Positions 5,485-56,300 of a stretch of 64,000 bases of DNA are shown here, one piece after another. Within the stretch, counting starts at the first letter, position 1. Each line of letters begins with the position of its first letter. The DNA is from Favolaschia claudopus (taxonomy: Eukaryota > Basidiomycota > Agaricomycetes > Agaricales > Mycenaceae), in NCBI GenBank assembly GCA_037176885.1, contig JAWWNJ010000089.1, positions 1 to 64,000 of the forward strand, written 5' to 3'. A program made the translations under genes and the position numbers. The notes below the pieces were generated by a model. It had not been told where the DNA came from and ran no database searches. It worked only from the letters and a program-made list of their open reading frames with translations.

Positions 5485-6481
5485 ATGCTCTCGCTACGCT
5501 ATCAACAGTCTACTACGAGTTTGTTGAGCTACTGGTCAGATAATATGTCCATCGGACCGAATCTACCCCTTCATACCCTCAGCAAGCCTGCTATGCGGTT
5601 CCTGTACCGATTACAGGTTAGGAAATTCATCAAGGCAAACGAGGATCACCCGCTTTCTGAGGAAATAATGGAAGTATTCGACAGCTATCTCGGGTATATG
5701 TGTGTTGCTGCTCAAGCGATCCCTTCTCTCATCTGGAAACTCTAGGTACAAATACATATCTTCCGCGACGAAGCGTATGATTTTACACCATCTCCATTCG
5801 AGGCTAGAGTCGCTTGAAGTGGAAGAATGTTTTAGCACCATGGAAATGGTCTGTCGATGTTCACCCAGCCTCGTGAACGCTCAGGGGTGGACGTCCGCCA
5901 GTGATACACTCCGTATTCAAGTATCTGCTTTCCGGCGTGTCGCCTCCAACAAGTTGCGCAATTGGGTTATGCAAAATCAGACACCGGATGTCTTGGGAGC
6001 TTTGAAATATTTCTCGTAATGCCTTCATACTATCGTGTAAACACTCTCTGACTGTCCCCAGCTTCACATACCGACATTGTCTTCCGACCTATGATAGACT
6101 GAATGAATGGCTCGCGCATGAAGTTTCGGGGAGACTTTCTCTCCTTGCAGATGACGACCTACGTTCATTCATGAGCAGTGGTCTTGCGCTTATTGCGAGC
6201 ATTCACGACTATTACGCACGTATCGCGGCATATGCCGCCATTTTTGAACGCACATCGGCTGAAACTTCGCCGCCTGCGATACAAGATCTTACTCTGGATG
6301 TTTTCACTTCGTTCATAGGGTAAGATGAGATTTGGCTTCAATTCCCCGCGAGCTTACCATGCATGGCAGAAGATATTATGGTCGATCTGCTTTGAGTACT
6401 AGTGGAGCTTCCATGCAACTGCTTGATGTGATTATAAGTGCTGGATCCAGAGATTTCTGTCTGATTATTCTGAGTATCTGA
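5485..6481 (+). CDS. Four-exon gene of unknown function, helical protein
   Basis: I do not recognise this protein. Four exons join in phase: 5485-5693, 5746-6015, 6062-6319 and 6370-6481. Introns are 46-52 bases with donors GTATAT, GTAATG and GTAAGA and acceptors CTAG, CCAG and GCAG. The product is 282 residues, mostly alpha-helical in appearance, with Leu/Ile-rich segments, no obvious signal peptide or zinc motif, and a hydrophobic last 15 residues (LIILSI before the stop). The frame stays open upstream to an acceptor-like TTCTCAG at 5373, so the true start may lie further left, at or within copy A. It sits directly after copy A. No match to any enzyme motif is visible. Confidence 0.55.
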
Positions 6482-7059
6482 GGCACAAATACTCCTGGAT
6501 CTCCCAACTTACTCGATGTCCAATATTTTGTGTGCTACATATAAAAAACTATTTTCTTTTTGAAATTCCGCTCAGAAACGAACAAACGTCACTGGTCTGT
6601 AAAAGGTTTGTTGCTCAGTCTCTCGCATGAGAGGGGAAGAGATGATAGCGATGACGTGCATGTTTACTTTATTAAAGCGTCGCTGCTCGCTCCCATTAGC
6701 ATCTTCAGATTTCCTGCCAGTGAGTGAGGGAGGCGAACTTCTAGAAGTTGAATTCCGCAACTGTTGTCGCGGATGCATCGCCATCGGCGTTCAAAGTTCT
6801 GGACACTCAGCGTGCTGCGGTGCTGAGAAATACGTATAACGCACCGGAAACGATAGGATACTTCAGCAAACGGTCGAGACTCGGATTCGAGTGGCACTTA
6901 ACTGTGATATTCTGAATCAAATACTCGGAGACGAGCACACCAATGTCGACAGCATGTTGAATGATTGACAAAGGAAAGGCCACTGGGCGGCGAAGAAACT
7001 GTGATGGGGCAGGGTGGGGGCTTGAAGGCTCTTCAGAGAGTTTTGTTTCTCTACGAATA
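6482..7059. other. Gene-free stretch
   Basis: Only short overlapping open frames on both strands, none with a recognisable motif or convincing splice signals. Confidence 0.5.
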
Positions 7060-7500
7060 CTGTAGTTGATTGATATGGAGTTCCGCCGACGACGCGAAGT
7101 TCGTAAGTGCAGTGTTCCAGGAGCAGCGGCTGAGATGCGCAAAGTAAGTAGACTCGATCGATATAGGTCAGGGTTCTGAGTATTGCATGCCATCGAAAGC
7201 CATTCTTCATAGACTTGCAGGAATTAGTACGATTATCGAGATTCGAGACCGAGCGCTAAACTTTGGTTGAACTGAGACATTTGAGAAACAGAGAGTCGAA
7301 GACGGCCCTCCTAGTGACGATGGTGAATTCACGAGGGAAGAGCGACTGGGTGGCGAAGACACCGTCGAGGAGAATTCATTTTTGCTGATTTTTCAATCTT
7401 GGGAGATTGAAGCAAGATTGAGGTCAAATTAGAGAGTTTGTGTGCACCCCGAGGAGGTCAGGCGAGACGAAGTTTTGGTGCTTGCGATGGACAACCAGAG
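7060..7500. repeat. Diverged direct repeat, copy 1
   Basis: Matches 8570-8960 in the same orientation, offset about 1.5 kb. Shared landmarks are GTTCCGC near 7081, AAGTTCGT-AGTGCA near 7097, AAGTAAGTAG near 7141, GAGAGTCGAAGAC near 7291 and the GATGGACA stretch near 7486. Divergence is substantial, with indels. No gene product is evident. Confidence 0.6.
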
Positions 7501-8569
7501 AAACTACTTACGTCGGTCGCCGTGGCGGTTTGAAGCAGAGCAAAATATACTGTAATCATCATGTACTGTTCACCAGCCTAAACACGATCTAATTGGGCTG
7601 GGCTGGACGCTTCCTCGAAGCGAAATAGAAACAGAAATCGAAAGCGGCTGAAGAGGGCTGTTAACAACTGCGGCTAGAGACTGTAACGATAGAGTATGAG
7701 CGGATGATAATATGAGCGCGGGCGAGAGAGAGAAGAAATGGGGTTGAGGAGGCAGCTCGTTATAAGTAAAGGAGGGTTGATACGGAATTTGAGGTGCGCT
7801 TTGATTGCGGGGGAGTCGAGGTGAATCGAGGATCGGCTGGTTTCTTGAGAGGAGGTGAGTTTATGTATGATAGGTGGGATCGACTCGGAGTAAGAATTAG
7901 ACGTACGGTAAAACGGTGTACAAGGTATAACTCTGCTTGTGCGGACTCCGAATATGTGCTCGCCGATCGGAGAAGGGATCTATGCCTTTTCGGGTTGAAT
8001 GACGGTGACGAAATTTTCAAGCGGTTCGACTAAGTAGAAAGAAAGGAAAGGTAAGATCGGCGCGGCGGAATTCAAGACCTTGATCATGGGTGGTTGGTTC
8101 GATGATTTGGGCTAATACCATCCGTCTCCCGCTCCCATATGTCCGTGGGAAGTACATACTACTTTGCTGTAGCGCTTTTGAGCGGACACCGTTAGCCTCT
8201 CAAAGAACTTTGCGTTGGGTGTGGATCGGTTAGTAATGCAACGAGTATTGAAATTTGGAGAGTTATCGGGCTATAGATCCACCACGCAAGAAAATTGCAT
8301 GCGTGCTGCGGACGAGGTGGGCTAGGAAGCAGACGTACATGCGTGGTTTGAGGGCATTGAAAGAAGGTGTTGTTGGACAGCGTTTCGTGGCGGACGAAGA
8401 ATTGGTTCGTAAGCGGATTGGTTGGTTGGAATTGTATCCGAGAAGGGGAGAGGAGAGCTGTGGCGTGGGTGGAGAGTGGAGAGATGAAAGTCAGGCGGAT
8501 GCGTCGTTATGATATCAAATGTTGGTTGAACGTCGACTAAATAACCATGCATGCAGCGTTCCGAATTTT
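7501..8569. other. Gene-free spacer between small repeats
   Basis: Purine-rich, with short open frames (at most 86 codons) lacking recognisable motifs. Confidence 0.45.
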
Positions 8570-40463: not shown

Positions 40464-42720
40464 TCGTAATTGATCCGCCCCCAAAATAAACGCGTTGGGG
40501 AAGATCAAGAGAGATAAAAAAAGATAAGGGGATCAGTCTCCGATTCCACCCGGGTCGTCCACATTTCACCGACGGCTGCCGAATCATTGCCGAATGTCAT
40601 CAGCGTCAATCAAACATGCAAATGTGTTCCAAACATGGGGGAACGAGATAATCCGAGACCACAAGGCGATTCTTAGAGTATCAAAATGGGGGGGTAGCCA
40701 AAATCTCAGCGTTATCGGTCCGAGTTCTGAGCTACAGAAAGAAGTCGAACGGTCGAGCCAGGAAAAGCTGGTCGGCTTTATCGGATTGCCTAATTTGGGG
40801 GGGTTGTCAAAGAGCCCTGTGTCTGATCGGCCAAGATCGCTCACCTCTTGACGTCGCCCGGAGCAGATGACGCGTTCGGCACTTCCCGCCTGTTCTGATC
40901 CGTGGAACCAAATAACGAACTGTGACACTATTGTGACCCCCTGTGACGCTTTCCGGTGTAACTATGGCACTCATCCCGGCGAGCTTGACAACAGCAACGC
41001 CGTCTGAGGTATCCACCGCCAACCATCTGCTCCTGGTTAACGCTCCTGGCTATACAGCATTACTTGGCCCATGCTACGTGCAGCTCTACTAACTCTACTC
41101 TTGGTCTACGAGGATGTCAAGACGCAACGGTCAACAATAATGCTACATTCGTTTGATTACTGTATCCAACACATCCAGATTCCAGAAGATTCAAGCGCAG
41201 CTCGTAGTCACTGAAGCTTCATGCTACTGCAAGCGCATAGCATCCGACAAAACCTGATTCCCCGCATCCAATTACTACAGACGCTCCAGACCAGACCACC
41301 GACGGCTCATATAAATCAAGCACTCGTCGGCAATTTGGAAGCACATGTATGTACTGCCAAAAAGCTTTCAGTTGTGGGAGTGGGAGGGAAAGATGTCGAG
41401 TTGTCCCGAGTCTTGCATCTTGATTCACTCGGTCCTAGACATTCCGATACTCATTCTGGCTATATCATGCGCAAGCGATGTCTAAATGACAAAATTCGTT
41501 GAGCATTTTTTCGGTTGGCATTCTATACGTCAACTCGGCGAAGATGCGGGAGACAACTTGTAAGTATGCTCCTCAGATTTTGGAAATTTTCTCTCATTTC
41601 ATCTTGGGGGGCATTATGAACTTTGAAGGCTCGATGGCTCGAGGAGGTAACCGGGAGTATGGAGCGCCGCAAAATTGGACGCGCTTGGATGAATCAATCA
41701 TTCCAGACCAGGCCTCGACCTTTCTTTGGGTTTCTCTCCGCTTCGCCCTGCTTCGCCTCATGTGTCCAACTATTACCGCTATAGTTGGTTTCCTATCAGA
41801 TTTCAGGAACTGCTCAGTCCCAAGACGTGTTGGAGCCTCAAATTCGACACTGCTCTCCACCACGGAGAATCCTCCGCTCTGGCTATCCTAGGCGTCCGGC
41901 ACAGATCATGTTTTCTGTCCAATAGCTTTGTTCCTAGTTTCGTCAATCGTCCCCCCGCTCGATCTCCACTCTCGGGTATGTTCGTATCAGCCCCGACTAT
42001 CTGGCTCAAATGCGTATGGAATGTGTCAGGCAAGACATGATAAGCATTCGTGGTTCTTTTTGGTCAGTATCGGTGTCCTACTCGGCGCATACAACAATAA
42101 CAAGATTCCCTCATGCTATTGCACCAATGCGAAGTTATAAAAAATAGCGCATGTGTTGGGTATAAATTGGATGCGGGCTGGGCCGGGGACGTTCCAATTT
42201 ATTGCCCGACATTTATTCTGGGCTACATGGACGACTCTTTGGATCGAATGACGAGGAGTAAGGTTTTTGCGCATTCTCCTTCTCATCAGATTTATCGGAT
42301 GCGCACGTCTACGAACTGTAGGGGAACAAACAGTTACCTTTTTCGCCGATAACAGGACCAATAGTTTATGGTTTGCGGCAACGACGGAAGATCGGGCTTT
42401 TAACTCTTTGTTTCATTCCCGACACTATCCGTGCGTGAGTGCTGCGCGGGAGCGGGGGGAACTATAGGGAATGACTGAAGATTCATTGAAGTTGTGTTTC
42501 GATACCGGTGATATCGTAAGTCGACCTATTCGTGAGTCTTGAACCTATTGGAAGAGTTAATGAAACCATCTAAACAACCACAGACGCTCAAGATTTTTTG
42601 TCAGTGCTATCATTCACAAGGTAGCGTTGTTCGTACGTACTTGCTGAAAGCGCAATTTGTTCAAATTGATCGTCTGGAAGTGCCGCGATGCCAAGGAGCA
42701 AAGCTATGAAGGCCGCCATT

Positions 42721-42732
42721 GGACAAAAAACA
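42721..42732 (+). repeat. Left terminal inverted repeat
   Basis: GGACAAAAAACA; matches the inverse of 53316-53327 with one mismatch. The adjacent subterminal region also shares TTGCAATTCCTT with the inverted right end. Confidence 0.7.
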
Positions 42733-42749
42733 TTGCACTTTACAATCAC

Positions 42750-42935
42750 ACATTTTCCTTGATAATCATTGCAATTCCTTGATATTCCGTGTATTTCCCA
42801 CCCGTTCCTTACTATTCCCGCGAAATCCCGAAAGTTCCTAACGTTCGTCCCGACAATTCCTGAGGAATAGCAAGGAAAGCCAAGGAATCCTTAGGATCAA
42901 TTCCTGCTTATTCCTCAGGAATTCCTAAAACATTG
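42750..42935 (+). repeat. Left subterminal array of TTCCTTG-like motifs
   Basis: Repeated short motifs TTTTCCTTGATA, AATTCCTTGATA, GTTCCTTACTATTCC, AATTCCTGAGGAATA, AATTCCTGCTTATTCC, spaced roughly 15-20 bases. The same motifs appear inverted at the right end. Clustered subterminal repeats of this kind are typical transposase binding sites. Confidence 0.7.
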
Positions 42936-43145
42936 CATGTGCGTAGAATTGAGTCTTCGCTTGCTTTCGGAGTCCTTGACAATCCTCAGGAATCCTGCTG
43001 ATCGGTCCGATCGGTCTTTCGGCAGTGAACTTCGCGAGCAAGATTGCCGTACATTTGAATGCTTCAAGTACTCCGTACAAACACAAGTCGTGTCGTCCAA
43101 CTCTGTCCCTCCACACACTCACAAAAAACAAGCTCTTGAGATCAA

Positions 43146-46100
43146 ATGCGTCTAAATCTTCGGCTCCCATCTCGTGGAGCCTGCATTGTTGCCAACTGCG
43201 TGCAAACTTGTTTCGGATTCGTCGCCGAAAACCCCGATGGCACCCCGAAATATTCTGTATGTGCTTTTACACTTCACTTTGAGGACTCTTGGTTGAAGCA
43301 CTGCAGGACTTTGATAATCCGGCCGCCATTTGTTTCGTTTGCGGTCATCCTTGGCTAGTCCACGTTGTTCAAGGCGGCGACATCAGTGAACAGAACAAGA
43401 TGTTTGCCCGTGGCGGAACGGGTGATGGCCGCTGCGCCTCGTTCTTCTCGGTACGTTCAATGAGTGTTCTGAGCTTGTATTCTTTCTGATTCGAGTTTTG
43501 AAGACAACCTTCCCTTGGACTATGCGACTGACCTGTATTTGCGGCCTTCCGTGGTCAGCCCACGCTCCGCTCTCCCAGTCTTCGCCGAGGTGCGCTATCC
43601 ATCATGTCAATCACATTGTATTGATCCGTTAATTAAGCTTGCCTTCTCCCGCCTCGACCACGCCGGCTCCTGCTTCTGTCCCGTCTGTCCTGCCTTCTAC
43701 GTCGTCGACTGTGGCTCCCACAAACTTCGGAATCACTCCCCATCGCCCCGTCACTGCTTTCACCGGCTTGGCTCGACCATCGACTGCTTCCGTTCAACAA
43801 GCGCGCCAGGCTTCGATTCAAAGAAACTTGCATGGTTCTAGTGCCGGTTCTTCGAGTCTCACTGCCGCCTCGGCCATTCCGACATCTCCAAAGAAGAAGC
43901 GCAAATCTGGCCCTCCCCGTTCATACACCGATACCCCGGCTTCCGTCTCCGCGTTGCATGATTTTGCTGCAGTGAGTGCTCCGACTACGGCAACCATCTG
44001 GTGTGGTATCCTGCCAAAAGTGGTGAGTGAATATCTGGTCTGAACTTCGAGTTATTTACTGATGCATGCGTACATTCTTCCATTAGCTTGACACCTCGGA
44101 TGCTAACGATACTCTTGATCTTTCCGTGCGTTATTTCTGGAAGAGCGCGGAGGAGATTGAGAATGTGCAAACTACTCTCAAAACTGCGGGCCTAGTTTTC
44201 AACGCCGTAGTTTCGACAACCGGCCCGATTTTTGAGGATATTGAGCTCGCCTTCCGGGATCATTGTGCGACCAACAACATTGATTATGTCGCTCCATCCC
44301 TTGCCACCGCTACTCCAAGTCCCAACACAATGTCTTATGTTCTACTTGGTCCACGAGGACGGTGAGTTCGTTCTACTCGAGCTAATACCCTACTTATTAC
44401 TCCTCAATCGCAGTGCTAATGGTCGAACCTGGGTGGAGGATCCCAAGTCACTCACGCGTTTCACCTTCACTTTGCAGTCTCTCCGGAGCGCCCCATACAG
44501 TCACACTCCTAACAACCTTGGCGATGGTGTTTTCATTTTCCTTGGTGCGTCATGACATGCTATGATTATCTTGCCAAAACAGCTAACGATACATTTAAAG
44601 CTCCTCGTCATCGCAATTTATTTGCACCCATTGACTGCTTGTTCGGGCCAACCAACCGTCTCCCCGATTATGTGCTTCCCCACCGGTGCTTTGGACGACG
44701 TGTACTCTATTCAGTCGTTGCATCTCTGAGCGGAGATCCGTGCCCCGAGTGCGGGAAGGGATGTACGACGCTGACAACTCCTGCAAATGTTGAAGTTATC
44801 CGTCAAGTTTCTCCCGACATTCTCGAAGTGCTGGACAGCGATGACGAGGTATCGATACATTCCATCTCATGTTGTATCTATCACTGACTCCCGCTCGCAT
44901 CTGACTCGCGCAGTTTCCTGCGATGTTGATAGACGAGGTGATGTTGAATTGTTTGCAGTAATCACTCAACCTCTAATTTATTGCTGCTCTTCAGGATGGC
45001 CCTTACCTTAGCGACAGCAGCGGTGAATCTCGTACCGTTCCGGCAATCCAACCGCGAGCAGCGCTCACGGTACGTGTTTGTTTGGACATTCTAATCAATT
45101 ACTGACCTAGCACAGATGGTAACTCGAGCTGCGGCTCGCCAACAGTGGCAAGAGGTACTTGCTTCATCCGTTCCGATTGCATTGTGATCTGAACTTTCAA
45201 TGTAGCAGGCTGCAGCCGCCGCTGTTCCGATCTCGACTGTAGCGCTTTTTGCGCCCGGCCCACTTCTCACCTCGATCATGGAGAAAGCTCCAGTAAATGT
45301 CAAAGTAAGTTCCAGGATTCGCTTGTGTCTCTTGATCACACTCAAATTTCTTTTAGCAGCGCTCATATCTCGGCGTAAATGCTGCGGTCGATCTAACTCT
45401 CCAGCATATGCCTGGCTCTGGCGCTTTCGCTATGGCGGCTTGGCAAAATCATTTACTGATGCCGCGGGAGATGGATGACCATGTTACGATCACTGCTAGT
45501 TCGGTCGATGAGGGTGCACGAGCACTCATTGTGCTATGTCTTTGGCTCTGCTCGCGTCCCACCTCCGTCAAGTTGAAAGAACTCGTCAACGAGCAGTTCA
45601 CCTCTCCCCGACCAACCATCGAGAACGCACATCTCGGGGAGAAGGGTTTGTGGGGACTTCGTGCCAGAATGTAAGCCTGTCGATTCTGCATTCAAGCTTA
45701 GCTTAATTAGCCTATTTAAGTGAACAGGGTGTCGGTCGCGGCCCTCGCAACGAGGTGGTAGCGCGAGCAGTCAAGATACTTGTCTCTGACGGCCGCTTTT
45801 GGACTGAACGGGAAGGCTATTTAACTCTTTGCCTTCACCCTTCTCGCTCGCCTATCCCCTATCGCTTCTGCATCTCCAAAGCTACCGGTCTCATATTCCT
45901 TCTTCATTTTTTGTTCATTGGCGCTCCCCTTCCTGTGTCTCCATTCCTTTTCTATACTTTGTTCGATGGTCGGGTGATTGCTTCGAAGTTTGATGTTGAA
46001 TTTCTTGCCAACTTCATGTCGCACCATTCCCTTTCGCTAATTAAACGCATCGCTGGCGTGCCGCTGGATCAGCCTCTGTACTCTTCCACGTCCGAATACT

Positions 46101-47057
46101 GCGAGGAGTATCAGTATCTCGTCAACATTCCCGGCGTCGATGTGAGTGTTCTTTCTAGTCGACGGAGAGAATGTTCTTATCTTTATTCAGCCAAGCATGA
46201 TATCTCCTTGCCGCTCAGAGGCAGAGCATGCAGGGATCTCAGACTGCGTTGTCAGCTTTGCTCAGCTTGGAACTGTTGACATCGAGCACTATCCGGACTA
46301 CCTTGCGACAGGGGATGGTTTCAACGTTGTTGTCGAGGCTTTCGGAGGTCAAGACCGCCCTCATCACGTACTGGAGGTGAGCATTGTGCGCATACTTCAT
46401 TCCTGTCTCATTTTTTTCCAGTGGTTCGCGACACCATGCCAAGAACTTATCAAAGCTGCCTTCGATCGCCAGGTCAAGGCAGCCTCGGATATCTTGAGAT
46501 TCTTGTTCTTTGAGGAGACTAATCCCGCAGACAACCCATGGGGCGATAATCACGAGATGATTGAGCTGATCAGCCGCTTCGTCATTCACTATCTCTTGGA
46601 GCCCGGTCATCCTCACGATCCAGATAAAGTGATAGGCGCGCTGATCGACGCCGACTCCACGGCCGCTGACTCTATCTTGCGGGCTCGACTCTTTCTTTCT
46701 GTTACGACTGGATCGACTCTTCTGCCCATCACCCCTGCTGGCTTTAAAATCAAGGTTAGACTTCTCCTCTCTCGCACATTTCTCCCTCTCATGAAGCTGC
46801 GGCTTGTCTCACAGTGCCTTATAACCCATGATCATTCGGAAGAGTACCCCACCCTTGATGCGCAGGGCAATGACGACTTCGGTCCGGATGTCGTCATCGA
46901 CTTTCGCTCCTGCTTCAAGACCTTCTCTCTCACCAACAACGCTCGCCTTCGCCACCTTCTTGTCTCAGACGATGCGGAGAAGGGGAAGGACACTACTTTT
47001 GGTCGTTTCTTCCATGGCCAGCTTTTGGCTGCCTGCAACTCGTATACTTCTTCGTAG
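43146..47057 (+). CDS. Large element protein with HECT-like C-terminal domain
   Basis: About 1,020 residues from some 15 exons that I could join in phase from the ATG at 43146 to TAG at 47057. The N-terminus has two related Cys motifs in separate exons: CFVCGHPWLVH (exon 2) and CICGLPWSAH (exon 3), probably zinc-binding. A Ser/Pro/Thr-rich linker with a basic PKKKRKS follows, a likely nuclear signal. The last ~300 residues look like a HECT ubiquitin-ligase domain: LFLSVTTGSTLLP resembles the HECT FVTG-S-P strand, and SCFKTFSLTNN with LRHLL matches the T-C-F-L-L catalytic loop. The candidate catalytic Cys codon is 46911-46913. HECT enzymes take ubiquitin on that Cys and pass it to a target. 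A role in element control or host-protein turnover is inference. It is followed 138 bases later by the next gene on the same strand. Confidence 0.65.
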
Positions 47058-47194
47058 CTCTCTAGCTCTTCGTAGCTGGTACAGGGTTCCATATGTTTTA
47101 GCCGAGTGCGTTTGAAATATCTAAGCGAATTCAGGGCTCGCAACCGGTGTGAAAACTCTATGCGCTTCTTTATAAACGGTAGTAGACCGCACAT

Positions 47195-48649
47195 ATGGTG
47201 CGCGTCGGTGGTATGAGCCGACCCCCCACTCGACAGAGTCGCCGGCTCAACGGACAGTCTCCATCTCCCCCGCCACCCCTGCCACCTGAACGATCTTCTC
47301 GTGCTGACTCAAATGCGCTTCACAGCGTTAATTCTGTTGAACCTGAACACCAACGTGAGAGTAAATAATTAATCTCGCTTGATTTCGACTCTCAATTTGA
47401 TATACCAGACTCAGACTTGTATGAGGTTCAGAATGACATGGATGTGATTCAGGAGCTACCGAACGCGGAAAGTTCGATACCGTGCGTGCGAATTATATTT
47501 TGAATCAACACTCATTGCTTAGTATTACTTGAAGCAGAGAGCTTAACTTCGACGACTGGGGTGGATCACCGCCAGGGGGTGCCTTAGCTGTTTCTCTGCG
47601 CCCGGAGGATCAGGCTACGATTGATCAGTTCATGAGCGAGCCCGACTTGAGCTTCCTTGAAAACGCTCTTTCTACTTCCAGCTCCCCGCTTTACCCTTTG
47701 GCGCCAATTTCGGCAGATCCTTCTCCAAGAGAAAACTCTTATTTCAATGTTTCGCCTCATATTCACTCTCCGCGTCGATCAGGGTACAAATTTCTTTGTG
47801 CTCTATGTTTTCCCTCATGTGAGCGCATTTAATCCACATGATTCCCTTGTTTGATTTCTTTCTTCACAGCGATCCGCAGCACTCATCATTTCCCCGCCTG
47901 CGCCGTCTCCCGCACTGACACCTGCGGCAAACAGTCGTCCCGTCAGTCGCTCCACTTCAAGGACACCGCTTTCCCAATCAGCGCTAACTGTTCAGCGCGG
48001 TTTGTTCAATGTTGCTCTCTTCACTGCAGCCCTCGACTCGCATTTTCGCCAGGAAGGTCATCAGCTCGCGATGCTCATGAACAGCAAAAACTCCGATCTG
48101 CACTTCGGGGTCGGGTACACCCAAATCCGACAGCTTCTGATCATTGAGGATGTTATCACTCGTGCATCACGCATGCGGATTGCAATCCCCAACGATCTCA
48201 AAATCACCGACAGTGTCCCTCTTTGGGCCGGGTTGAATCTCTCCACTTATATGAACAACAGAACATACGCGAAGAATGCGCGCGGGACCCTGATTCATTT
48301 GCGAAATCGAAAGAACGCCAACATTGTGTCAGCGCTGTCTGCCCCCGACCAGCAGAAAGAGAACGATCTACGTCGCTTCTTGGAGGTGTGCTTTGCTCCG
48401 GATCTCGCTACAGTCGAGATGGCGGAATCCTTGAGTCGGGCCGGTTTTGGATCTCCCACTGTGATGACTATTCGGACTGGCGTTGGGCAGGTGAAGAAAA
48501 GATTGGCGCTGTATCAGTCAGGGTGTCAAAACTTCCGCAATGAGCCACTCACTAGAACGTCGGTGAATCCAACAGTTCTACGACATAATCAGATCTTGAC
48601 AGGCAGAACCAAACTCGGAACGTACCTTCGTCGGCATATAGAACAGTGA
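47195..48649 (+). CDS. Element protein of unknown function
   Basis: Roughly 400 residues, ATG at 47195 (MVRVGGMSRPPTRQSRRLNG), stop ending at 48649, several short introns (donors GTGAGAGT near 47354, GTGCGTGC near 47481). The N-terminal third is Pro/Ser-rich and acidic, with a DFDDWGG-like patch (FDDWGGSPPGG). The C-terminal ~215 residues form one long exon with a helical, basic composition. Landmarks there are RGLFNVALFTAALDSHFRQ, LLIIEDVITRASRMRIAIP, LNLSTYMNNRTYAKNARG and a final LGTYLRRHIEQ. I recognise no enzyme motif. Its position behind the HECT-like gene suggests a partner function (DNA binding or complex assembly), but that is inference. Confidence 0.55.
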
Positions 48650-50130
48650 GCGGGTCAGATTCGTCTGACAGAGTACCTCCCATTTCAATCCATGCCTCCC
48701 GGCCAAAAACGAGGTGGCCGAGGTTATGAGGGAGCTGAAGACCAACCGAGACGAGGGATGGCTCAAAAACATCGTAAAGGGTCGTGTTTTCGTCGCGGAT
48801 CCACAGATCTTCGGCGGATAACTCAACGATCTTGGCCTAGAGAATTGGTGGTGAGGTGAAGATGGAATGAAACAACGAGGACTTACTTTATACTCGTCGA
48901 CGAGGAAAGCCATTCGTTCGGGAAGCCGAGTGCGATCCTTGGCGTAGACGTGCAGCCAATCCAGGTATTTTAGCCGCTGCTGTTTAGTGGGAGCAAGATA
49001 ACCGTCGTGAAGAGCGGGTCGTAGCAGCTCCCTAGAAATTAAGTTCAACGATTTACAGGGAATTGATAATCAAATTAAATTGGCGCACTCTAAACCGGTT
49101 TCCGAGCGATGAAGGAACTGGAGATATGCTAACGCAATGCGGGCTGTGCGAGAAGGGTTGGTGAAAACCTCCGCCTCAGTCAGTTGCATGGAGAGACCTG
49201 TTGACACGGTGAGCAAGATGACAAAAAAGGATTCAACACTATCGCACCAGCCAAGAAAAACAACTCGACAACGGTGTACACCCCAATTCCGGGGAAGGTT
49301 TCGTTGTTTGCTCGCATCACCTCACATGCTAGGCCGCTCCGATCACAGTTAACGCGCTTGCGGATCCACTTCGCTAAATCCGCAAGAAAAGACCACTTGG
49401 GACTGTAGAAGTCGGGCGGAGGGGGAGGCAAGTCGCTGCGAGACTTCGCCCATTTTGGCTGGGTGTTTGATCAGCTCAAACACATTTAGAGAGAAAATAA
49501 CGCACTTGAAAAACAAGATCAGAGCTCAGGAATACCAGAACATGGTCTTCAAACACAAGTGCCAGGCCTACCCGCGCTCGCCGAACCTGGGCCAGTTCAG
49601 CAATCGATCAATGAGTTGCATATACTATCACACACCTTTTTTGTGTACAAACTTTATGGTCGATTCATAGTCCGAACGCGAACAGAACAGCGCAGAGGTA
49701 TGGGTGAGCCATTGAATCTATAGAATTCAATGAGTGAGAGAGAGGGCGAGAGGGAAACGACCATAGTTACACTGAGGTGAAGAGCTCCAAGATCCAGGAT
49801 CAACGACCGATATGTGTATGATAGATCCTTCAGTTCGAGAGTCGTAAGCGGGTCCGGATCGGCAGGTCCGGCAGCCTTGGTTGTGTGCCACATCGGAGGG
49901 TAAACAGGCCCCTGAGACAAGTTTGTGCCGCGCTTGACCGTGCAGGTGGAGTCGATTTGATAAGGCAAACCGAGGGAAGCAGGATGGTCTTTGGGAAACT
50001 TGGTCTCTTCGGCTTCAGTTGCGTCGATGTCGATGCCGAGCAGTTGGAGCTTAATACCGGCTTCAAGGAGCTCTTTGAGACGCTTCATAGCAGCCAAGAA
50101 TGACGCTTTAGATTCCCGGGTTTCGGGCAT
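48552..50130 (-). CDS. Element protein of unknown function, conserved-looking
   Basis: ATG at 50130 (MPETRESKASFLAAMKRLK). Exon 1 encodes LLGIDIDATEAEETKFPKD and PVYPPMWHTTKAAG. Following exons give IQWLTHTSALFCSRSDYES, then DLPPPPPDFYSPKWSFLAD and LAKWIRKRVN, NNETFPGIGVYTVVELFFL, LRPALHDGYLAP, LKYLDWLHVYAKDRTRLPE and RMAFLVDEYK. After a GTAAGT..CTAG intron come IVELSAEDLWIRDENTT and LYDVFEPSLVSVGLQLP. The likely stop is at 48552, which would overlap the 3' end of the convergent plus-strand gene by about 100 bases. It is divergent from the MAPR-like gene, with 167 bases between the two start codons. Family unknown to me; membrane segments are not evident. Exon borders near 49060-49650 are uncertain. 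Confidence 0.5.
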
Positions 50131-50297
50131 AGCGAGGAAAGGCAGAGACGGAGAGGAGAACTGCGAGAAGGTGGTGGGAGAAAGGAAGAAGATCAACTTC
50201 ACGTGACGGTGTGTCACCGGCTATCCGGCGCCCAGTTCCGAGTACATAAATCCTTATCTGATTTCGGCGCTCAATTCTGTCTCCTCCTCCGATCGTC

Positions 50298-50811
50298 ATG
50301 TCTCTTGCAGATGGGAACCTCCCACTGTTAATTCCTCCCAATTATGTCAATCAGGACCTCGACATAATGAGGCTCCCCACAATGACACTGGCTGACCTAA
50401 CCGCAACTGATGAATACGAGTTTGGTGCCCGGATCCTTGTTGTTTTAAAAGGTACACCTCAATACCTTCCGAAATTCCCGGGAAGATTAATGACATTCTA
50501 TAGGGCTTGTCTTTGATGTTACCGGCATGAAAGAAGCGTTCAGTCCAAGGGGATTGTTTGAATTTTACCCCAACAATGATATTACATACGCGTTAGCAAA
50601 AGGGAGTGTTCTTGAAGAAGATGCTCGGGTCGGCGGGGAATCAGGACTGACCGACAGAGAGAAAGAAAATTTGGAGCGCTGGTTCACTGTTTTCAAGTGT
50701 GTTGCCTTTATCAATAATTTGTTCAACTCATTCTGATGAGTGCTTGAAAGAAATCGGTTCGAAATAATCGGAAAGACAGATCAAGTCGATCAGGGATTGT
50801 ACTCGAATTGA
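50298..50811 (+). CDS. Cytochrome b5-like / MAPR-fold small protein, element cargo
   Basis: 139 residues from exons 50298-50451, 50504-50698 and 50741-50811, joined in phase (introns 52 and 42 bases). The order TLADLTATDEYEFGARILVV, LKGLVFDVTG, ALAKGSVLEED, LTDREKENLERWFTVFK, RFEIIGK follows the membrane-associated progesterone receptor (MAPR) branch of the cytochrome b5 fold. These proteins normally bind heme and act as partners of P450s or sterol enzymes. There is no N-terminal membrane anchor, unlike typical PGRMC/Dap1 proteins. The segment KEAFSPRGLFEFY has Phe (about residue 64) where the heme-ligating Tyr of PGRMC1 would align, so heme binding is doubtful. It lies inside the transposon, divergent from the gene at 48552-50130. 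Confidence 0.75.
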
Positions 50812-51080
50812 TTTGAAGTCATGAGCAAAAGTCGAGTATTAAAGGAGTCTTGAGTCGTTTTATATAAGAGAACAATTCGGATTGGCTAGTCGTTGTGTAG
50901 TGTCGAGTTACGGGTTATTCTGATTCTGTTAACTCACTGCAGGTAATCAACTCGAAAATCATCACCCATGAGGCCTAAGTGACCCGGTAGGTAAAGTAGC
51001 TAATTCGGAACATGGAGTTCTATCGCTGGGAAGTAACATAGATTAGAGGCGACATATATTTATTAGAAATACATGATGAT
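50812..51080. other. Convergent intergenic region inside the element
   Basis: Between the MAPR-like stop and the integrase stop. No gene or repeat is evident. Confidence 0.5.
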
Positions 51081-52887
51081 CTAGCGTAAATTTCCCGCCT
51101 GAATATCCTGTGCGATCTGAAGCGCCTCAATCCACACCAACCGCCGCACATTCATATTCCGTGAAAAGAGATCCACAGAACTGTTGAGATGTTCGTCGAG
51201 CAGCTGAAGCTGTATCGGAGTGAAGGGGCAGCCAGGCGGCTCACACAAAACCTCCGACAGGTTTGCCGGCGTGCTTGCGGAGGCAAAGGGATCGGTATTG
51301 TTGACGCGCTCATGGGGGTTGTTTTCAAGCAAATGTGCTATCAGCTCCGGCTCCGTGTTCACCTCCCAATCGATTCCGTATTCGTTGATATCCTCGATTT
51401 CCTCCTCCTCCGCAGCAAGAAACGAGGATATACCGCGAGGCCCCTCGCGTAACATCCCAAACGTGAATAGATCGCGCGGACTGCGCTCCCGCTGCCGACG
51501 AACTGTTAGCTGATGCGAGTTCCACGCTTCCGCCCATTCCTCGGCATCGCGGTTAATGGATGCCAGGAATAGGTGGTGAAGCAGCCAGATATGGCCAGGC
51601 CGCGTGGGGTTCAGCCCGTGGTTAGTTTCGAGATCAAGGAAGAAAACTTTCCACTTCTTTCCGAAACCGTGCGTCACGTCGTACCACAGGCGTTCGATGC
51701 GTGTGTTGTGGACACTCCTGAATGACGTATCTCAGCAACGGTGTAGAAATGAAAAATTTAAACCAACCTTCCCCAGATGAACGAACCTCGACCCGAGCCT
51801 CTGACTTCCTCCATGTAAACCGCAACCTCGATGTTCTCGACACCGTGATCGCCTCGCATGCGGCTCGGACAGCCGTGAAGCGCGATGACATCAAGTAGCA
51901 AGCGTAAAACACTCGCACCGCGATTGTTGTTGTGCACGCGAATGCCGAGCACAAACCGCGAATACCCGTCGATGATGCAGTGGATGACGATCTTGTAACG
52001 AATGAGGCCTCAGGATCATTGATTCAGCTGAGGAATAGAATATGAACCTGAACAGTGTGCTCACCGTGTTGCCCGTCAAGATGTGCAAGGGACATGGGCC
52101 CTGGAACACGATATTTCTTGCGGCTGATTTGCCGATCCCCAAAGATTGCTGGGGCACCATGCACCCGTACATACGAAGCAGTAATTCGGTCGCGCGGGAC
52201 GTGATAACCCTGGGACTTGAGATGTCCCCGAATCATGCGCCGCCCAAACTGCGGGAAAACCTCCAATGTTGACGCAAGAAGCTGATCGAGTTCAGCGTCG
52301 GATATCGCCGAGACAGGAGGCGCAGTGGAGGTATGAACAACTTCAACTTCTCCTGTGGCATTCATCCGCGACTGAAATACAGGGGCGCCGGGTTGAACTA
52401 GTCCAGCACGAAGAGCAGCACGTCGAACAGTGCGAGCCGAAACCCCGATCTCAGGAGCAATCCCAGTCGGACCACGAAGATCAAGAGCAGCCCTCAGGAA
52501 TTGGGGATCAATCTCAATCCGTGGTCGACCTCGTCGCCCAGTATGTACACGATGAGCAACAGTTAAAGGAGCAGAATCAGGCGGGTCCATCGAGTCGTGG
52601 CAGGCAAGATCAAGAGCCGTCACCATGTCGGTGAGGGACGTTTGAAGAGTTGCATATTCGTCGGGGGGGAAAATGGCTTGATGCTAAATGAGACTGTGAG
52701 CATTCACAGTGAATTTTGCTGCTATGATTCTTACAATCTCCGCCGCCGAAGCCAACGCTAGTGCTCTATCTCGAATAGCGTGCAGGCTAGGCGGGTCTCC
52801 GACCATGGTGCGCAAAGCCGAGAGGACCTCATCGTGAAATGTGTGGTAGGTGTCTCTGAGGTTGCGGAGTCGTTGTTCAGCGTCCAT
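51081..52887 (-). CDS. DDE integrase (retroviral-integrase-fold transposase)
   Basis: The candidate transposase of the element, about 545 residues. ATG at 52887; exon 1 (52735-52887) splices in phase to exon 2 at 52683. A helix-turn-helix follows, built on IAPEIGVSARTVRRAALRAG (about residues 105-140). The catalytic core has SLAHLDGQH (first Asp, about 254), then IIDGYSRFVLGIRVHNNNR, CPSRMRGDHGVEN (second Asp, about 312) and VHNTRIERLWYDV (Glu, about 34 residues later): the D, D, E triad of rve-type integrases. Introns fall after DGQH and in WGR/SVHN and keep frame. The C-terminal ~170 residues contain LLHHLFLASINRDAEEW and an acidic patch. It resembles the stand-alone integrase-core proteins found as multicopy genes in animals and fungi. 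The triad is intact, so activity is possible. Confidence 0.85.
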
Positions 52888-53089
52888 TCCAGAAGCTCAG
52901 ATGAGAACTGAGACGAGAAAAGCAGAGCCCTTGGTCTGATGGTGGAAGGAGAAGAAACCAGAGTTCGAGTCGGCGGCAGTTGCAGGACATGGGAGCGGAG
53001 ATCACAGATCATGATACAGAACAACTAGGAATGATGGGGAATGTCAAAGGATGCAAAGGTAAACTTTCTACCGACCAAGAAAGCAAACG

Positions 53090-53300
53090 CAAGCCGAGGT
53101 GGTGAAAAACCAGGAATTAGGAGTTTTCATCGGGAAAGCTGAGGAATCAAAGTGAATGCAAACACCGGTGAAATTCAGGACTCATCGGGAATTCCTTAGG
53201 ACAAGCCAGGATATGCAAGGAATCAACGGGAGGCTTCAGGATTTACGAGGAACAGTAAGGAATTGCAAGGATTGATCGGGAAACGTAATGATTGCGCAGG
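53090..53300 (-). repeat. Right subterminal array of CAAGGAA-like motifs
   Basis: The inverse of the left array: ATGCAAGGAATCAACGGGA, TACGAGGAACAGTAAGGAAT, TTGCAAGGATTGATCGGGAA, plus GAATTCCTTAGGA, with similar spacing. Confidence 0.7.
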
Positions 53301-53315
53301 AAACAAGTGTAAACT

Positions 53316-53327
53316 TGTATTTTGTCC
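53316..53327 (-). repeat. Right terminal inverted repeat
   Basis: TGTATTTTGTCC; read on the minus strand it is GGACAAAATACA, matching the left end with one difference. It is followed by GGTACCGG. Confidence 0.7.
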
Positions 53328-56300
53328 GGTACCGGCCACCAAACAAAGCAACAGAGCGCAATTCGCTTTCTTATCTATAATCTGGACTCTTGCTAAATGC
53401 AGAAGCTTTACGCTGCATGAAACCTGAATGAGAACGATTCCATTGTCTGTGAGTCATTGTAGCCAAGGACAGTCCGTTACCTGAATGCCTCCGAATTTTT
53501 TTTGAGTTCCCATCGCCGGTCGCCGCGCCGGAGGCGAGTTATCGTCCAAGGTCATGTGGGGGGATATCACGCAATAGAGGAGGTTCTTTGTAAGTATGGC
53601 ACACTGAAGACGCAGGCAAGCTCTTGCTGCCGTAGGTGACTCCAAGGACTCGAGTCCAATCTCTGAGAAATCTAACTATCCGGCCCAAAAACAAATTGAT
53701 TAGATCTCCTACACATATTCGGGGGTGGAGCAAAAAATAATTTAAACTGTAATGTATCCCGACCTTTGCGCAGGCCGAAAAGAAACGCGTATAGATAAAC
53801 GCGGGAGACCAGAATCACGTGGTCGCGAAGTAAGTGTGGGAATGTTTGGTTCCCACACGTTTGGTGCCACACACTTTCCCGGAACAACGACCATCCCAAA
53901 GCAAACGACTCATGAGCTGCTCAGTTGCGCAAATCTGGCCACCCGTGTTAGCTAGAAACTCTTTAGCGTAGCTCCGAGCGTACATTCGTGCCGAAAAATC
54001 GATTCTTCAATGCCTATTTTTCAAGATACTATCATACAGTACTTTCTCTACAGTGTTATGCCACTCTGAAAGACTTCAGCGCAGGATGCTACATAGGCGA
54101 CGTAGTTCTGATAGAAGCTCTGGCTGCGGTGCTCATGCGTCTGTCTGTCTGTTTCCGACGTTCGAAACCTGCCGAATTTCTTCACATGGGCGCAGTTTTC
54201 CCTTCGGCGACTGGCGAATTTTTTTTCAATCGTGCATGTAGTATCTTCACCCTACCCCAATGGCGCGCATTTTAATTGACAGTCCGTGTAAGTATCTCGT
54301 TTCTGACGACTCTGCCAGCGAAACGGCAAGAACTCTCAGTGGCACAGGAGCCGAAATGACATATTTTTGCGTCATGTCGGTCCACAACTTGAATCAGTCT
54401 TCATTGGCTCGTTCGATTGGCATATCTACTTACCTTACCCCTCCGCTATGGCATAGGTGAGTTAAGTTCTTACCCTATTCCGCCTCTCCATCATGTCTTA
54501 TCATCTCTCATAGATTTCTTCTTCCCGTAGGTTGGGGTCATATGAACGCGACGAACATGCGAAAGGCAGAAGACACCTGCTGTTCCCAAGCTGTCTCAGT
54601 TGTTTCTTACCCGAATCTCACCAATGAATAGGAAAAGCCGTCCTGTTCCCGACGACACATCGCGCATTCGTGGGGCGGCCGAAACTGCTCAGACATGTGA
54701 AGATTTATACACACCGTGTTAATCTTTGCTCAGGCTCAGATAGAAAACCTGTTCTAATCAACGACCTTCAATTATCTACGACATTTCCGCAACATTTCCG
54801 TGCCACTCATTGCGGTCGCGGGTGCAGATGACACGCTGGCCTCACGCTCCTTCCTTCTGCTTCCGGACCCCGGTTCGCGTCAAGTCCGTCGTATTTTGGA
54901 GCCAAAATTCCAGCATAATTCGGCAAGTCCTTCAGATTCACTTATATTGACATTTACATGATTGAAACCTAGACACAGGGTCGTTGGGACGGAGGCCACC
55001 GGCGACGCTACACTGCAATATCTAAAAGACAAGTTAAAGGAACACGATCCTGGTATGACTATCAAGATATTCGGGACCCGGATCTTCCAGGTATGGTTAT
55101 GCCGGGTGGTATTCAATCCCGCTCAGCCTCCCTTGTCGAGGAGACATTAGCTTCCATTTGGTGAAATTTTTTGGACCTCGGAAATTCCATAGCGCCGGGA
55201 CTTCATCAGGAGATACTCGAGATGAGGGAGACATCTTAAACCTCCGCTAAGCACGGAGGCCAGAGAGCCAAGGTGCGTTTTATCATACTTGGCTACATCA
55301 ATGTCCCAACCACACCTCTTTCAGTTATAGATCCCTTGTTGGTCGACCGTCACAAATCGCGGTCCGTGCAATATCGGGATACAGAAATCAAGTACTTCGA
55401 GCCCGCCTCGCCGGGTCGCCGCTGTCTCCTTTTTTCTTTGTCTGTCATTTCGGCGATGCTCGGCTCAGCTATGCCGTGTCTTTGGTTTGTCGAATCGAAC
55501 TGTTGGAGCCTGACCGCTCACCCCAGGTAGAGCATGAGGGTGCATATGCTCGCTTGGAAAGAAATGGTGATGCTGCCTAACTCTCGTCTTCCGCCGAACG
55601 ACCGGGTCTCCAACAACGCCGGATGTCTCTCCGAACGCTTCGGAATATGGCTTAGAAGCAGGTCAACCGCAACGCCACGAAGAAGACAGCGATGACGGAT
55701 CGCCTACCTCCAACATAACATTGAGAAACAAAATGGGAGATGGGGTAGAAACGTACGATGGAGCTGAGAAATTCTCGGCACATTGCTGAAATTACGATCT
55801 GCCCCTACTTTTTGCGCAAATCTACTCACCGGATTCTTTCTGGAATGAGTCAAAACGGTCTGTATGACAACTTTACTTTTACACGAGTTTCCTTCCCAAT
55901 TCTCATTTTCCATCCTTCAAGCACGCAAACAGCTATCTTCAATGGGGGTTCAACTTTCTAGCCGAACGAAACGGAGGTAAGTACTGATTCTGCAGCGGTT
56001 CTTCGTGTCAACACACAAAAGGATCTTGCGCTCCAGACAAAGCCAGGGACTCGGACCGAATACTTAACCTAAACAATTGAACAATGGAATAAAGCGCCGA
56101 CGTCAAGCAGATCGACGTTGTCCACGCGGTATTTAATATCGTTAACAATGAGCGGTGCGAATAAGTAGTTTAAGCGATGTCTGCGTTAACGACATGATTT
56201 TATTTACTTCACCTCGGATTAGGGGGTGCTCTGGTGAGGTAGGAACGCATTTCGTGCGGCACAAGGTCGAACAGCGCCCGTACAGTTTCGATTACCTCCG

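Follow-up and report, generated by a model that had tools for sequence, protein, structure and literature searches.

The 64,000-nucleotide stretch of the Favolaschia claudopus genome analysed here (contig JAWWNJ010000089.1, positions 1–64,000; the window) contains one complete copy of a recently mobile DNA transposon that is 10–13 kb long in this fungus. The window copy spans 42705–53343 (10,639 bp) and carries genes designated A to E (Table 1), of which E encodes the integrase/transposase, A a protein with a predicted HECT fold and D a MAPR/cytochrome-b5-like protein. The element is likely to be a recently active cut-and-paste transposon of the IS3/IS481-related (IS3EU/GingerRoot-like) type with A and D as its commonest partners.

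Copies, termini and an empty site

A DNA search of the 264.6-Mb host genome assembly with positions 42721–53328 returned matches of 99–100% at nine further places, in addition to diverged ones. A first-pass annotation of this DNA had suggested looking for further copies with shared termini, and these were thus found. The left end reads TATGAAGGCCGCCATTGGACAAAA in all ten copies read (the window and nine others) and the right end GGTACCGGCCACCAAA in eight of them; the stretches read for the two degraded copies, C251 and C38, are without a right end. Agreement among the copies places both true ends 15–16 bp beyond those first proposed, so that the annotated inverted termini are present while their exact limits lie further outward, and GGACAAAA is ruled out as the element end. 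It is the perfect core of imperfect terminal inverted repeats (TIRs) that match at 18 of the 26 outermost positions. All eight copies with both ends have the termini TAT...AAA.

The window element is flanked on either side by the 6-bp sequence CAAAGC. Perfect 6-bp direct repeats, each different, border seven of the eight copies with both ends read (GTTTTC, GAGCGG, GAATAA, GAGGAA, GTTGTC, GGCAAA and CAAAGC), C17b being without. The first-pass annotation had also proposed to look for empty sites in other strains, and one was found in the same assembly: when the sequences on either side of the window element are fused at a single CAAAGC, they align with C206:256418–257009 as one match (600 bp, 88%) that is ungapped across this CAAAGC. 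This site most likely represents the other haplotype. Two haplotypes are probably present in the assembly, because the published 265-Mb PacBio assembly of Favolaschia claudopus contains 86.8% duplicated BUSCO genes (PMC10905254, excerpts). Near-identical copies with different duplications, together with an exact empty site, leave practically no room for the view that the 10.6-kb unit is a domesticated integrase with host genes clustered beside it by chance, and the site on C206 refutes both such a cluster and a fixed host integrase.

C174 and C17b (13,020 bp) have all five genes open. C54, C17a, C90 and C49 (12,399 bp) and C44 (12,402 bp) are 99.98–100% identical to C54 and lack 623 bp within B, which shifts its frame; C44 also shows a 1-bp length change in C. 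The window copy is a deletion derivative of these longer forms: it has the same 623-bp deletion and, alone among the copies read, a second one of 1,760 bp that removes the 3' part of C and alters the end of B. The five intact genes of the first-pass annotation are thereby reduced to three in the window, where A, D and E are open, B is frameshifted and C retains 403 of its 599 residues. As the five 12.4-kb copies with a broken B have spread, B is dispensable in cis.

The 1,760-bp segment (5851–7610 of the C54 element) contains, where B and C converge, degenerate repeats (73–80%) at intervals of about 171 bp. The copy at C54 has a diverged relative as its neighbour on the left, with a match of about 76% over the integrase end; the relative stops some 35 bp short of the copy (at about 244.8 kb; L017 near 7704–7739), which suggests that this copy inserted beside a related element.

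The integrase/transposase

The complete D-D-E triad noted at first in the integrase holds (D254, D311 and E346), and E matches Pfam rva_4 at E=2e-57; rve was matched at E=6.5e-5, below its cut-off. A search of PDB sequences gave 0 matches for E. No HHCC motif was seen in the protein, which has one Cys ahead of D254. There are 214 homologs, and the 120 listed include proteins from Ganoderma, Trametes, Athelia, Mycena, Rhizoctonia and Tulasnella. Public entries list two of the integrases, P0071 and P0078, as ‘nitrite transporter NirC’, likely a misannotation. Integrase loci of 45–62% identity with no A or D detected nearby (C83:623843, C14:167826, C16, C31, C109, C114:131610 and C215) probably belong to other families of the same transposase type.

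A divergent protein with a predicted HECT fold

All gene models were spliced by hand and replace automatic ones. The 1035-residue model of A is based on full-length Mycena homologs of 1022–1036 residues (P0012, P0014, P0019); it matches public proteins of Favolaschia claudopus at 99–100%, the public models from this genome being shorter (794 residues, P0001; 780 residues, P0002). When the predicted structure of a Mycena homolog was compared with known structures, only HECT E3 ligases matched at significant E-values, and the predicted fold is bilobal, covering both HECT lobes. Near the C terminus lies Cys988, which we take to be the HECT catalytic Cys from its motif and not from a structural alignment. 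It is kept in 42 of the 44 homologs that cover the site (9 of 53 are gapped there) and the following Phe in 43 of 44, both including the 28%-identical Pilatotrama protein. A thus resembles Smurf, Nedd4, HUWE1 and Rsp5 in its predicted fold over both lobes and in a Cys-Phe motif near the C terminus, but differs from them in its N-terminal region, in the lack of a profile match and in an identity of only 7–14% in structural alignments.

Several points weigh against a functional HECT ligase. Against Pfam, HECT profile included, the window protein gave no family at E≤1 and 24 of its homologs no HECT at E≤0.1, and no match was obtained with PDB sequence profiles; the HECT domain is therefore very divergent. 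Superposition on HECT structures gave root-mean-square deviations of 6–14 Å, for a fold predicted from a homolog. Cys769 (43 of 49) and Cys850 (42 of 50) are conserved nearly as well as Cys988, and a fold alone is no proof of activity. The prediction thus supports a HECT fold in A, with a putative ligase activity. The ‘HECT-like’ label of the first-pass annotation agrees with the predicted fold and the conserved Cys and not with the sequence profile; A would represent a HECT-fold family overlooked by the Pfam profile.

Such divergence could also be expected if A had retained the fold without ligase activity and served as a structural or DNA/chromatin-binding transposition protein, and its N-terminal Cys/His motifs, conserved among homologs, suggest a binding role. 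Against this stands the conservation of the catalytic-type Cys and the adjacent Phe as far as Pilatotrama, and we regard a non-catalytic A as unlikely.

Accompanying genes

The product of D matches Arabidopsis-type MAPR proteins (1j03, E=3.2e-9 over residues 32–124; 1t0g, 3.7e-9) and PGRMC1 (4x8y, 7.7e-5) across the domain. Its score with Pfam Cyt-b5 is 14 bits, below the cut-off of 23.7, and its relative P0060 has a precomputed PF00173 assignment. By these sequence matches D is MAPR/cytochrome-b5-like. It departs from the MAPR proteins in that it lacks an obvious membrane segment (the highest hydropathy over 19 residues is 1.5) and has a Phe where 1j03 has a Tyr, presumably the axial haem ligand; because of this Phe, D is probably not a classical haem carrier. 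All ten D homologs found (10/10) come from Favolaschia claudopus.

B had no Pfam match, and its predicted structure is unusable (mean predicted local distance difference test score 32). Models of 404 and 427 residues were rejected as artefacts of the 623-bp deletion. In several species B follows A, and blastp identified four predicted proteins in which both are fused (P0020, P0025, P0052 and, only at E 2e-4, P0049). The end of P0018 resembles the start of B by eye, blastp giving no match. C belongs to a family without a confident match; in Pfam it found only DUF6879, at 12.9 bits, below the cut-off of 23.9.

Selection and gene association

The ratio of non-synonymous to synonymous substitution rates (dN/dS) was calculated between the window genes and the diverged copy C124. 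Values were 0.12 for A (933 codons), 0.24 for B (215 alignable codons, taken from the 404-residue artefact model), 0.11 for C (569 codons), 0.19 for D (124 codons) and 0.047 for E (451 codons, with synonymous sites saturated in two of four segments). All five genes are under purifying selection. Synonymous divergence (dS) is 1.1–1.5 for A, B and E and 0.09–0.19 for C and D, and DNA identity (L035/L037) is 95% in the C–D block, 74–76% over much of A and 79% in E. The low dS and high identity of C and D next to diverged A and E indicate that the C–D block was probably exchanged recently between the window and C124 families, giving a recombination mosaic.

Loci in the genome were typed by hand, one per place; the searches scored best candidates only and the matches for C were not all listed, so absences are not firm. 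Among the matches listed there are 68 integrase, 58 D, 51 A and 46 C loci. An integrase lies within 12 kb of D at 54 of the 58 D loci, within 16 kb of A at 35 of the 51 A loci, all 35 of which also have D, and within 12 kb of C at 32 of the 46 C loci. At 21 of the 68 integrase loci all of A, C, D and E were found, and at 14 A and D with no C detected. By these counts the more stable set in Favolaschia claudopus is that of A, D and E, with C variable; the genes co-occur frequently, if not constantly as the first-pass annotation had asked. Homologs of A and E were also found on contigs of the same size in Mycena capillaripes (613,497) and Pilatotrama (303,782), an indirect sign of linkage.

Some of these data weigh against a standing partnership. 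No integrase was detected near 16 of the 51 A loci and no A at 33 of the 68 integrase loci, and the 12.4-kb copies multiplied despite their broken B. Together with the failure to detect C at 14 of the 35 integrase loci where A and D are both present, and with the restriction of the D homologs found to one species, they are what would be expected if A, B, C and D were captured passengers without a role in transposition and E alone mattered. That alternative is opposed by purifying selection on five genes, which in A, B and E has persisted across a deep divergence, and by the proximity of A and E in this genome and on the same-sized contigs; we hold it to be rather improbable. Seven A–E pairs matched by equal contig size (contig 2640309, with two A and two E, was excluded as ambiguous) gave correlated identities (r 0.80, exact p 0.037). 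When the Pilatotrama pair is dropped, the correlation is only r 0.34 (p 0.25); because it depends on this one distant pair, it adds little against the passenger alternative and was not counted as support.

Subterminal arrays

Within 330 bp of the left end there are 8 TTCCT motifs against a mean of 0.57 in mononucleotide shuffles, and within 330 bp of the right end 7 AGGAA against a mean of 1.16. The left end contains 5 AGGAA as well (mean 0.18). The subterminal arrays described at first thus exceed chance at both ends, but are not purely inverted. For phasing, the fraction of distances between TTCC motifs that are exact multiples of 10 was determined within 330 bp of each end and compared with 5,000 random placements. 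It was 0.45 at the window left end (p<0.0001), 0.40 at the window right end (p=0.0004), 0.45 at the right end of C124 (p<0.0001) and 0.24 in the diverged neighbour in C54 (p=0.0096). Allowing deviations of 1 bp weakened the phasing (p 0.013, 0.005, 0.0004 and 0.019, respectively). With one TTCC unit per helical turn, the motifs would share one face of the DNA, and we take the phased array as a putative binding array.

Table 1. Features of the transposon copy in the window.
Positions	Strand	Feature	Evidence
42699..42704	.	left target-site duplication CAAAGC	single CAAAGC at empty site on C206
42705..53343	.	complete transposon copy, 10,639 bp	copy comparison
42705..42730	+	left imperfect TIR (18/26 match; core GGACAAAA)	end comparison
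42755..42926	+	left subterminal TTCC array; 42755–42838 in 10-bp register, later motifs mixed with GGAA	
43146..47057	+	gene A, 16 exons, 1035 residues: N-terminal Cys/His motifs, basic PKKKRKS stretch, C-terminal predicted HECT fold	
46911..46913	+	Cys988 codon of A; motif RSCFKTFS, by which it is equated with the HECT catalytic Cys	
47195..48649	+	remnant of gene B, frameshifted by the loss of 623 bp near 47775 and changed at its 3' end by the 1,760-bp deletion; 615 residues in 13.0-kb copies	
48552..50130	-	gene C, truncated, 403 of 599 residues; family without confident match	
48554..48555	.	1,760-bp deletion junction of window copy	alignment with longer copies
50298..50811	+	gene D, 3 exons, 135 residues, MAPR/cytochrome-b5-like; public protein P0054 has the identical sequence	
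51081..52887	-	gene E, 4 exons, 549 residues, integrase/transposase (rva_4)	
51693..51695	-	E346 of E (DD34E)	
51848..51850	-	D311 of E (DD34E)	
52075..52077	-	D254 of E (DD34E)	
53112..53302	-	subterminal TTCC array of the right end (minus-strand reading), 10-bp register in part	
53318..53343	-	right imperfect TIR	end comparison
53344..53349	.	right target-site duplication CAAAGC	copy comparison

Proposed mode of action

According to the cut-and-paste reading, E would carry out transposition and, perhaps with B or C, would bind the TIRs and, along one side of the helix, the phased TTCC arrays, and so bring the ends together. A may be a nuclear HECT E3 that is brought to its substrates by the N-terminal Cys/His domain and acts in trans. 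Its favoured target would be a host silencing or repair factor, a choice we put at somewhat below an even chance; ubiquitination of the transposase itself seems appreciably less probable, and otherwise the HECT fold of A would be used without catalysis. D would act as a soluble MAPR helper. The first-pass annotation had the element carrying its own ubiquitin-ligase-like factor, perhaps directed at host silencing or repair proteins or at the integrase; the predicted HECT fold and the conserved Cys fit this putative role.

It is a tentative proposal, and one we doubt a little more than we believe, that the lineage has been kept, in Mycenaceae at the least and perhaps as far as Polyporales, by its own active HECT ligase as a transposition or anti-silencing factor, along with a MAPR protein that was co-opted and, for recognition of the ends, an array in phase with the helix. 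Were A an active ligase, the transposon would act on the host ubiquitin system, in a manner comparable to the published fungal TET/JBP elements, and would offer a testable handle on why very large mushroom genomes (265 Mb here) fail to contain transposons. The HECT cargo in itself hints at a possible interference of transposons with the protein-modification machinery of the host.

Comparison with known transposons

IS3EU/GingerRoot elements are described as having 6-bp duplications, no HHCC motif and TA..TA ends, those of GingerRoot sometimes being TG..CA (PMC10045372, excerpts). The window element shares with them the 6-bp duplications, the rve/rva_4 core and the lack of an HHCC motif, but ends in TA..AA, which counts against the assignment. 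Both these termini and the TIR, which is short and imperfect, depart from what is published for IS3EU and would suit a transposase from a different, unnamed superfamily; given the three shared features we consider this improbable. TET-bearing IS3EU elements of Pucciniales have ends TAYGG..CCRTA and TIRs of more than 30 bp (Kojima 2025, PMC12730594, excerpts), whereas the window element matches at 18 of 26 positions. Because the terminal signature fails, we call the element IS3EU/GingerRoot-like, a placement by its features, and do not file it within the superfamily.

The first-pass annotation knew of no named family with this gene set. The gene set was indeed not found, but by its integrase type and its 6-bp duplications the element agrees with the IS3EU/GingerRoot group, in which cargo-bearing elements are published. 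A literature search yielded no transposon with a HECT or MAPR gene in the titles and abstract openings among the rows listed, most subscription journals lying outside its scope, so this is no proof of absence. In the main text of PMC12730594 the words HECT, ubiquitin, Favolaschia, Mycena and cytochrome occur 0 times. Fungal IS3EU elements with other cargo are already published, and HECT-fold plus MAPR-like cargo was not found in the literature searched.

Styx of Zymoseptoria (PMC10853768, excerpts) is likewise a multi-gene fungal element with an IS3EU-related transposase and recent activity. It differs in its length of 7,927 bp and its four open reading frames (transposase, GATA, CCHC and DUF3577), and the main text mentions ‘ubiquitin’ 0 times. 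Fungal IS3EU elements of Pucciniales and Tuber carry TET/JBP and alpha-kinase genes, and their TET/JBP enzymes may counter DNA methylation (PMC12730594, excerpts). With these the window element has in common the 6-bp duplications, a multi-gene organisation, enzymes that possibly act on the host and ends that start with TAY; it is set apart by its termini TATGAAGG..CCACCAAA with an imperfect TIR and by a cargo of one HECT-fold, one MAPR-like and two unassigned genes.
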